Positions 10,653 through 18,348 of a stretch of DNA of 37,543 nucleotides are shown here, piece by piece. Numbering within the stretch: position 1 is the first letter of the stretch; the number at the start of each line of letters is the position of its first letter. The translations under genes were made by a program, and so were the position numbers. The stretch covers positions 1 through 37,543 of the forward strand of contig CAMCDO010000004.1 in NCBI GenBank assembly GCA_945873585.1. Direction: 5' to 3'. Source of the DNA: Verrucomicrobia subdivision 6 bacterium (GTDB taxonomy: Bacteria > Verrucomicrobiota > Verrucomicrobiia > Methylacidiphilales > Verrucolacustridaceae). The notes under the pieces are model-generated. The model made no database searches. It saw nothing but the letters and a program-made list of their open reading frames with translations, and was not told where the DNA came from.

Positions 10653-11146
10653 AATTCTTCTTTCTTACTCTTCTTCTAGCGGGACCGTGGCTCTACAGCG
10701 AAGAGGCCAATCCAGCCCCTGCGAGTCCTGCCCCCACAACCAGTGGACTAACCACAATCACGAGCGATTCCCTCGATCTTAATCTTGGCAAAGAGAAGGG
10801 CAAAAAACAGGGGCTTTTCCGTGGTAATGTGACTGTCGACGAACCGCGCTTTACCATGACCGCAAAAGAAATGACGGTTCTCTTCGCCGATAACGACGCG
10901 GTTCAATCGCTCGAGGCAAGGGATGATGTCATCATCAAGCGGAAAGATGGTTCCTCGGAAACCTCGAGCGAAAAGGCCATCTACGAGGTGGCAGACAAAA
11001 AGCTCATCCTCCTCAAAGTTACCCGCCAACCCAAGGTCACCACCAGTGACAAGAAAGTCGTCAAAGCTGATAAAATTATCATCTATCCAGAAGATGATAA
11101 GATGACTACCGAAGGGAAAAGCTCGGTCGAGCTTAAGGCCCCCTGA
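10649..11146 (+). CDS. lptA: LptA/OstA-like periplasmic LPS transport protein
   Basis: Signal peptide; OstA-like repeats (ITSDSLDLNL...GLFRGNVTVDEPRFTMTAKEMTVLF...VKADKIIIYPEDDKMTTEGKSSVEL). Confidence 0.82.
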   Translation: MKFFFLTLLLAGPWLYSEEANPAPASPAPTTSGLTTITSDSLDLNLGKEKGKKQGLFRGNVTVDEPRFTMTAKEMTVLFADNDAVQSLEARDDVIIKRKDGSSETSSEKAIYEVADKKLILLKVTRQPKVTTSDKKVVKADKIIIYPEDDKMTTEGKSSVELKAP

Positions 11147-11904
11147 ACACACCCCTTCCCACCGCGGAGCCACTTACTGGGGAACCCATCCTTTCTTGCG
11201 ATGGCCTAGTCAAACGATATGGGGATCGGAATGTGGTCAATGGAGTAAATCTAAATATTCGCGCAGGCGAAGTCGTCGGACTTCTTGGCCCGAACGGTGC
11301 CGGAAAAACCACCAGTTTCTATATGCTAGTAGGTCTTGTTCGGCCTACCGCGGGTTCAATTACCTTTGCGGGGGAAGATGTCACTGGCATGCCGATGTAC
11401 CGCCGCGCCCGACGTGGGATCGGTTACCTTCCTCAGGAAGAGTCAATTTTTCGGCGTCTAACCGTAGAGGAAAACCTCATGGCAATTCTTGAAACACTTC
11501 CGATCACTGATCAGGAGAGAAAAGAACGTTGCCAAGAGCTTCTGGTCGAACTGGGACTTGATGCCTTAGTCAAAAGTCTCGCCATCCAGCTTTCGGGTGG
11601 TGAGAAGCGCCGCCTAGCTATTGCCCGTTGTCTCGTTACCCGCCCGAGCGTTCTACTTCTCGATGAGCCTTTTAGCGGCGTCGATCCGCTCGCCGTATAC
11701 GATATTCAGCAAATCATCCTCACCATGCGGAGGAAAGGAATCGCAGTGCTCATTACCGACCATAATGTACGTGAGACTCTGTCCATCGTCAGTCGTGCCT
11801 ACTTAATTTGTGAAGGCAAGGTGGAGAGCGAGGGAAATGCGGAGTTTCTAATCAATGATCCTGTGGCCCGCGGTCTTTACCTTGGACCACGGTTTTCCAT
11901 GTAA
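11143..11904 (+). CDS. lptB: LPS export ABC transporter ATP-binding protein; probable CTG start at 11143 (ORF track begins at GTG 11233)
   Basis: GLLGPNGAGKTTSFYMLVGLV, Q-loop YLPQEESIFRRLTVEENL, LSGGEKRRLAIARCL, LLLDEPFSGVDP, LITDHNVRETL. In-frame upstream codons encode the conserved LptB N-terminus (ILSCDGLVKRYGDRNVVNGV) with no ATG/GTG/TTG between the stop at 11134 and 11233. Confidence 0.9.
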   Translation: MNTPLPTAEPLTGEPILSCDGLVKRYGDRNVVNGVNLNIRAGEVVGLLGPNGAGKTTSFYMLVGLVRPTAGSITFAGEDVTGMPMYRRARRGIGYLPQEESIFRRLTVEENLMAILETLPITDQERKERCQELLVELGLDALVKSLAIQLSGGEKRRLAIARCLVTRPSVLLLDEPFSGVDPLAVYDIQQIILTMRRKGIAVLITDHNVRETLSIVSRAYLICEGKVESEGNAEFLINDPVARGLYLGPRFSM

Positions 11905-16733: not shown

Positions 16734-17081
16734 CTACTTATCGATCCGGTCCGCATCGCCCCAGAGATTTTCTAGACGATAAAAGTTACGCCGTGCCGAA
16801 TGCATTACATGAACCAAGACATCCCCATAATCCAAAATAATCCACTGACTAGCGGAGTTTCCTGAGATTCGATACGGCTTGCGGCCACCCGCTTCCTCTA
16901 CCCCGCGATCAATTTCACCCGCAATTGCCTTGAGATGAGGCTCATTATCCCCAGAAACAACCAAAAAGAAATCGGCGGGACCACCCACTTTGCGTAGATC
17001 AAGAATTACAGGATCTTTTGCCTTCTTCTCGGCGGAGGACTCACGACAAAGACGGGCCAACTCCACCCCGCCTACACTCAT
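16734..17081 (-). CDS. rsfS: Ribosome silencing factor RsfS/Iojap
   Basis: DPVILDLRKVGGPADFFLVVSGDNEPHLKAIAGEI...SASQWIILDYGDVLVHVMHSARRNFYRLENLWGDA; ATGA overlap with nadD. Confidence 0.93.
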   Translation of the reverse strand: MSVGGVELARLCRESSAEKKAKDPVILDLRKVGGPADFFLVVSGDNEPHLKAIAGEIDRGVEEAGGRKPYRISGNSASQWIILDYGDVLVHVMHSARRNFYRLENLWGDADRIDK

Positions 17082-17647
17082 CGGTAAACCCTACTTCGTC
17101 GCAAGGCTTTCTCCACGGAAGGCAAAAGCAAGCCCTTCACCGAAAGCCCTCTCTGCAAACGCCCGCGGATATCCGTAGCCGAGATATCAAGGCGAAGAGG
17201 AATCGACTTCATTTTCATACGAGCAAGAGGTTGGGCTATTTCGGGCCGGGGAAACACAAGAAACTTCACCAGACCGCCTAACTCCTCGTAGTTCTTCCAA
17301 CGTGGCAATGTGGACCATTGATCAGAACCTAATATCCAGTACAGCTCCCCTCGAGGTTCTAAGGTTTTCCAGTGGCGAGCAGCCTCAACTGAATAGGAAG
17401 GCCCCTGCCGGTCGACCTCCCATGTAGAGACCTTAGCCCAACTCTCCCCCTTCAACCCCGAACGCAACCAGCGCAGCCGCGCTCGATCAGACGCAATCGG
17501 ACGAGCCGATTTCAAGGGCGATTGAGAACAAGGTAGAAAGATGACTTGATCCAGAGAGAACAGCTCGCGAGCCGCGAGGGCGATGAGATAGTGACCGACA
17601 TGAAACGGGTCAAACGTCCCGCCGAACAGAGCCGTCTTCCGCCTCAG
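17078..17647 (-). CDS. nadD: Nicotinate-nucleotide adenylyltransferase; probable CTG start at 17647 (ORF track begins at internal TTG 17515)
   Basis: Extending upstream in frame gives (L)RRKTALFGGTFDPFHVGHYLIALAARELFSLDQVIFLPCSQSP, the canonical GGTFDPxHxGH nucleotidyltransferase motif. CTG overlaps the SLBB gene stop (CTGA) and is preceded by GGAG with 6-nt spacing. Confidence 0.9.
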   Translation of the reverse strand: MRRKTALFGGTFDPFHVGHYLIALAARELFSLDQVIFLPCSQSPLKSARPIASDRARLRWLRSGLKGESWAKVSTWEVDRQGPSYSVEAARHWKTLEPRGELYWILGSDQWSTLPRWKNYEELGGLVKFLVFPRPEIAQPLARMKMKSIPLRLDISATDIRGRLQRGLSVKGLLLPSVEKALRRSRVYR

Positions 17648-18348
17648 AAAATACTCCGATCCACATGAATTTTGTCGTTCGGGCGCAACCGAATGTCGCG
17701 CCCCTGATCAATCTGAATCTCCTTCGCATTAAACTCCTGCGTAACTCCATTTTGGGTCAACCGTACCTTCCTTCGATTAGCAAAGTCAGTAAAGCCCCCG
17801 CAAGCTGCCACCGCACCCATTGCGGTAAGATCTTTGGTATAAGGAACCCGCATGGGAGACCGGACCTCGCCCGTCACGTCGACAAACCTCTGTTCTTTCA
17901 AATCCACCGTTACGTTTGGATTAGTAAATATCTCATCCTTGATATAGGTCGATTCAATTAACTTTTTCAAAGTAACTGTGGTGTTATTGGCGGCCGCCAG
18001 ACTTCCTATGTGGGGCATGGATATTTTGCCTGCTTCATCAATTTTTACCTCAAAAATACCCTGATCCGCACTCGGCACACCCGTAAGGCGAATAATCAGA
18101 GTGTCACCTCCTCGCAAAAGATCGCTAATATCATCCGAAGAAGTACCCGAGATTGCGCTGGGCGGAACGATTCCCGACATCGGATCAGGGAGAACGACAA
18201 CTGGTGCTCCGGTTGGTGCCGCTGGATTCTCGATCGGACCTTTTGTAGAAAATGCCGATCCCGTACCTTCCCCTAAATGAAGCGATTGCCCAATGACGAC
18301 GTTGCATAGCGTAATCACCGCAAGGAGCGGTCCGAAAATCCGTTTCAT
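17644..18348 (-). CDS. Polysaccharide export (Wza-like) protein with Poly_export/SLBB domains
   Basis: Signal peptide; LLRGGDTLIIRLTGVPSADQGIFEVKIDEAGKISMPHIGSLAAANNTTVTLKKLIESTYI...NPNVTVDLKEQRFVDVTGEVRSPMRVPYTKDLTAMGAVAACGGFTDFANRRKVRLTQ. Confidence 0.9.
   Translation of the reverse strand: MKRIFGPLLAVITLCNVVIGQSLHLGEGTGSAFSTKGPIENPAAPTGAPVVVLPDPMSGIVPPSAISGTSSDDISDLLRGGDTLIIRLTGVPSADQGIFEVKIDEAGKISMPHIGSLAAANNTTVTLKKLIESTYIKDEIFTNPNVTVDLKEQRFVDVTGEVRSPMRVPYTKDLTAMGAVAACGGFTDFANRRKVRLTQNGVTQEFNAKEIQIDQGRDIRLRPNDKIHVDRSIF

Follow-up and report, generated by a model that had tools for sequence, protein, structure and literature searches.

Where does translation of nadD begin when its reading frame offers none of the standard start codons ahead of the catalytic motif? 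The question arises in a 37,543-nucleotide stretch of DNA (the window) from a MAG of 1.41 Mb that belongs to a genus of freshwater Verrucomicrobia. A sequence-only reading of this stretch had proposed that nadD starts at a CTG codon overlapping the stop codon of an upstream polysaccharide export gene. The features concerned, with positions in the window, are the following.

17644 to 18348, minus strand: SLBB / Poly_export (Wza-like) polysaccharide export gene, with VDRSIF-TGA at its end (PF02563, PF10531; TIGR03027 under its cut-off).
17654 to 17657, minus strand: GGAG Shine-Dalgarno, formed by the SLBB codons CGG AGT, with a 6-nt spacer to the CTG.
17645 to 17647, minus strand: inferred nadD start codon CTG, overlapping the upstream TGA as CTGA; all 17 genomes that keep the overlap have CTG or TTG here.
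17078 to 17647, minus strand: nadD (nicotinate-nucleotide adenylyltransferase), 189 aa if read from the predicted CTG start to a TGA stop (TIGR00482, PF01467, comparative evidence for the start).
17513 to 17515, minus strand: TTG at which the program-made ORF list starts the gene; inside NadD it encodes a Leu (SQSP-L-KSAR), and the TTG is not conserved.
16734 to 17081, minus strand: rsfS (ribosome silencing factor), whose ATG start overlaps the nadD stop as ATGA (TIGR00090 above cut-off).
11143 to 11904, plus strand: lptB, whose putative CTG start (11143-11145) overlaps the end of lptA as CTGA (TIGR04406 above cut-off).

Judged by its sequence, the product of the nadD frame is NadD, with the enzyme function of a nicotinate-nucleotide adenylyltransferase predicted. 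Its stop-to-stop translation matches TIGR00482 with 140.8 bits (cut-off 112.45, E = 5e-41) and spans the full profile (1-194 of 194), with the N-terminal GGTFDPxHxGH motif inside the match. This match begins at residue 27, a few residues past the CTG. On the minus strand the SLBB gene ends in GTG GAT CGG AGT ATT TTC TGA, and the nadD frame reads TTT CTG AGG CGG AAG ACG GCT CTG TTC GGC GGG ACG TTT GAC CCG TTT CAT. The SLBB stop (TGA, 17646-17644) and the candidate start share the letters CTGA (17647-17644) on the same strand, and the spacer between GGAG and CTG is TATTTT. The frame is open from 17707 to 17078, and from 17707 to the GGTFDPFHVGH motif we count zero ATG, GTG or TTG codons; the conserved NadD N-terminus is thus not preceded by any canonical start within the open frame. 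The overlap, the six-nucleotide spacing behind GGAG and the missing canonical codons had all been described correctly from the letters. A second in-frame CTG encodes the L of ALFGG, and at this position relatives vary freely (CTC, CTT, TTA, TTG). The predicted local RNA fold of 17605-17690 is much like that of its shuffles, and structure adds nothing to the evidence for the start.

The first canonical codon in the nadD frame is TTG 17515, and one could imagine that the gene is truncated or starts there, with the similarity further upstream being residual. The ORF list does place the start at this codon, as had been pointed out. It lies 36 codons 3′ of the first Gly of the motif, so that a protein starting there would lose the N-terminal part of the TIGR00482 match, catalytic motif included. 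Against such a start, this Leu codon varies among relatives (TTG, TTA, CTC, CTG or CTA), the GG[TS]FDPFH motif is kept at 18 of 18 NadD loci of the genus, and the profile match runs from end to end. We consider the chance of a truncated NadD to be negligible.

NadD was found in 18 of the 21 genomes of the genus (MAGs in all cases whose record was seen); completeness is 80% or less in the three genomes that gave no match. The SLBB gene ends in VDRSIF-TGA and overlaps nadD by four nucleotides in 17 of the 18, the window's genome included. The codon at exactly this site is CTG in 11 genomes (L001-L006, L008, L009, L012, L013, L017) and TTG in the remaining six (L007, L010, L011, L014, L015, L019), and GGAG is present in all 17. 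An alignment of this junction had been named as a check on the proposed start, and it came out in its favor. Upstream of the CTG or TTG, the nadD frame is interrupted at different positions in different species. Since L003 has an in-frame stop just four codons before its CTG, the start in this species cannot be further upstream.

The same comparison bears on whether assembly or base calling might have turned TTG or another canonical start into the CTG. Such an error is conceivable in a MAG contig like this one, and six relatives do have TTG, but CTG occupies the identical site in ten other genomes, four close sisters among them, from several isolates and projects. Because separately assembled sister species share this codon, an error, which the sequence-only reading had listed as grounds for abandoning its proposal, is extremely unlikely.

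In L016 (genome G018) the overlap is lost: the SLBB gene stops with TAA, a TTG start of nadD follows three nucleotides later (TAA GTT TTG), and the Shine-Dalgarno codon is CGA. In L018, from another family, the overlap is also lost (TAG CGC ATG), and the Shine-Dalgarno codon is CGC. In L021, from a third family, a TTGA overlap is kept with CGC TCG in place of the Shine-Dalgarno codons. Within the genus, the bin G011 contains two differing nadD junctions, L014 and, on another contig, L115, an 18th locus, which has CTG at the junction and TTG two codons on. Such a pair of junctions suggests that the bin holds two species of the genus. Having both the CTG and the L016-type TTG, L115 is a possible intermediate toward L016. 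In yet another family (L096, genome G045), a VDRSIF-type SLBB gene is followed directly by an rsfS-like frame with no nadD between them; the SLBB-rsfS neighborhood may therefore be older than, or independent of, the place of nadD in it.

To assess the ribosome binding site, codon usage was counted per column in the SLBB protein alignment of the 17 species, at columns with one invariant, degenerate amino acid. Among 83 such columns, 82 use two to six codons. The sole column with a single codon is an Arg (CGG in 17 of 17) that supplies the GG of GGAG; CGG makes up 24% of the Arg codons in the window. With the motif, its 6-nt spacer and this conservation at the codon level, we conclude that the predicted GGAG Shine-Dalgarno of nadD is under selection. 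The three loci without GGAG (L016, L018, L021) have a codon other than CGG, so that GGAG and the overlap occur together in the genus. Across this genome, a Shine-Dalgarno 4-mer stands in the right place at 26 of 71 ATGA or GTGA overlaps, compared to 16% of control positions. A pattern search for the 16S 3′ end, which carries the anti-Shine-Dalgarno, gave no match in this genome or in the MAGs of the genus.

This conservation pattern also speaks to the idea that NadD has no initiation of its own and is made by ribosomes that shift frame in the SLBB gene or read through its stop. The two frames do overlap by four nucleotides. Yet the end of the SLBB product, VDRSIF, is invariant, the element conserved at the nucleotide level is the Shine-Dalgarno, and in L016 and L018 the overlap gives way to an ordinary in-frame stop followed by an independent start codon, TTG or ATG. 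We therefore hold this route to be very unlikely.

Why should the start alternate between CTG and TTG? The first base of the nadD start codon is the third base of the terminal SLBB Phe codon: TTC-TGA gives CTG, and TTT-TGA gives TTG. As long as Phe-TGA is kept, the start is limited to these two codons; ATG or GTG could arise only if the SLBB protein ended in a different residue. The sequence-only proposal for nadD mentioned neither this tie to the Phe codon nor the lptB case described below. In L018, which has given up the overlap, ATG is available for nadD. The terminal Phe is encoded by TTC in 11 and TTT in 6 genomes, inside the range of other Phe columns, and this typical ratio gives no sign of a preference for TTG over CTG. 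Accordingly, no selection against CTG relative to TTG at the nadD start was seen in the Phe codon counts of the 17 genomes. We infer that the CTG arose and persists owing to the overlap, not to CUG being a good start. On the NadD tree, the CTG/TTG label changes at least five times, as expected if the start base belongs to a Phe wobble position; well supported branches force three of these changes. Belinky et al. (PMC5622118) likewise observed that start codons interchange among close relatives, but counted one UUG-to-CUG switch among 2,468 ancestral UUG starts. Measured against such annotation-based counts, a junction with this many CTG/TTG changes in one genus is exceptional.

The comparison supports initiation of nadD at the CTG. 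From the conserved overlap, GGAG and codon position, and from the switching, all read directly in the genomes, we infer CUG initiation, coupling and low efficiency: very probably, NadD is translated from CTG 17647-17645 by termination-reinitiation at the 4-nt overlap, with the start base tied to the wobble position of the SLBB Phe. A ribosome finishing the SLBB gene at the overlapping UGA would stay held by the GGAG six nucleotides upstream, and this post-termination ribosome would re-initiate with fMet-tRNA at the CUG one base back. The predicted N-terminus of NadD is then (f)MRRKTALFGGTFDPFHVGH..., with (M)RRKTALFGGTFDPFHVGHYL as the predicted N-terminal peptide of the CTG-started protein, and the start would drift between CTG and TTG as TTC and TTT interchange in the SLBB gene. 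NadD is probably needed in small amounts, which makes a weak, coupled start plausible. Counted against a CTG start is the low yield of CUG in E. coli: according to figures that PMC11497404 cites from Hecht 2017, CUG initiates at 0.86% of the AUG level, and 0.024% of bacterial start codons are CUG.

A start at a near-cognate codon a few residues further on, such as the ACG of RRK-T-ALFGG, would also keep the catalytic motif. This column is ATT or ATC in most relatives, and ATT seemingly serves as the start of rnhB in the same genus (see below). In the window's own clade the codon is ACG, about 18 nt from the conserved GGAG as opposed to 6 nt for CTG/TTG, and a start there would leave the conservation of the overlap without a reason. 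We regard initiation at this codon as improbable, and retain reinitiation at the CTG.

Termination-reinitiation at 4-nt overlaps is well documented (PMC10666635). The SLBB-nadD pair resembles these systems in that two genes on the same strand overlap by four nucleotides, the start lies one base before the stop, and the Shine-Dalgarno is within the upstream gene. In contrast to the ATGA and GTGA forms listed there for the -4 class, the overlap is CTGA or TTGA. A second precedent comes from Staphylococcus, in which conserved non-canonical starts (infC AUA, cvfC1 AUU, ccpN AUA) occur with strong Shine-Dalgarno sequences (PMC13009471). As in these cases, a weak start is kept across a genus, with a conserved Shine-Dalgarno thought to compensate. 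The Staphylococcus starts are AUA or AUU and were demonstrated by Ribo-Ret and reporters, whereas nadD alternates between CTG and TTG and is known here from comparison alone. CUG starts and 4-nt overlaps are each already known; the alternation of CTG and TTG throughout a genus, tied to the Phe codon of the gene upstream, is a new instance.

Other genes of the genus appear to use non-canonical starts as well. The survey covered 437 kb of this genome (the window and 20 further stretches, about 31% of the genome). Shadow ORFs swamped a blastp comparison of every stop-to-stop ORF with stretches from two relatives, and the survey relied on a coding-score filter. With this filter, which missed nadD itself, the overlaps comprise 39 ATGA, 20 GTGA, 6 TTGA and 4 CTGA. 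A second screen checked 377 genes for coding signal preceding the first canonical codon. Two further conserved non-canonical starts emerged from the sample, lptB and rnhB; both are by-products of the analysis and less well supported than nadD. A CTGA overlap of infB (L135:1968) with its upstream gene is not claimed as a CTG start, as an ATG lies 8 codons downstream.

The lptB product matches TIGR04406 with 332.6 bits. The next canonical codon is GTG 11233, and starting there would remove the conserved N-terminus of LptB. We take the probable start to be the CTG in the overlap with lptA. Among 16 genomes (L136-L151) the codon is CTG in 12, TTG in 3 and ATG in one (L145), where the overlap with lptA is lost. 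The lptA residue before the overlap is Pro (CCC or CCT), so that the CTG of lptB is not forced: ATG (CCA-TGA) and GTG would be synonymous for lptA, yet neither is seen in the overlap. The rnhB gene, encoding RNase HII (L120:17807-18427, plus strand), appears to start at ATT. This codon is present in 17 of 17 members of the genus with a readable junction (L246-L263), and in most species an in-frame stop lies shortly before it. The ATT is followed by a conserved IPPxWKxE, and mostly no canonical codon precedes the GVDExGRG motif.

Taken together, nadD (CTG/TTG), lptB (CTG/TTG) and rnhB (ATT) raise the possibility, which we put forward tentatively and consider rather doubtful, that this genus tolerates and long keeps non-canonical starts more than model bacteria do, with a less strict initiation machinery. 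In this genome, the initiator tRNA (L176:1501-1575, plus strand) carries A29-U41 where the first of three anticodon-stem G-C pairs would stand; these three pairs are highly conserved in all domains (PMC7949028). As read from the sequence, it also has T1-A72, a position at which E. coli shows a C1xA72 mismatch. In E. coli, a change of the neighboring pair 30-40 removes discrimination against CUG (PMC11497404). Every one of the order's 45 matching genomes has A29-U41, and these include families in which nadD shows an ATG close to its expected start; being order-wide, the pair cannot alone explain the genus and was rejected as the specific cause. As a candidate cause of CUG tolerance, it is a lead and not an explanation. 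A weak start codon of the IF3 gene was ruled out as well, since infC starts with ATG in the genus.

These observations have consequences for how start codons are counted. Gene finders restricted to ATG, GTG and TTG cut off the active site of NadD, and database models of NadD, LptB and RNase HII from this clade are likely truncated. Annotation surveys limited to the same three codons miss such starts, which bears on the apparent rarity of CUG. The nadD junction offers a natural, replicated case of a putative CUG start kept in a presumably essential gene, and shows how such a start may persist: its first base is locked into the last codon of the upstream gene. With lptB and rnhB, the start-codon question becomes testable at the level of the genus.
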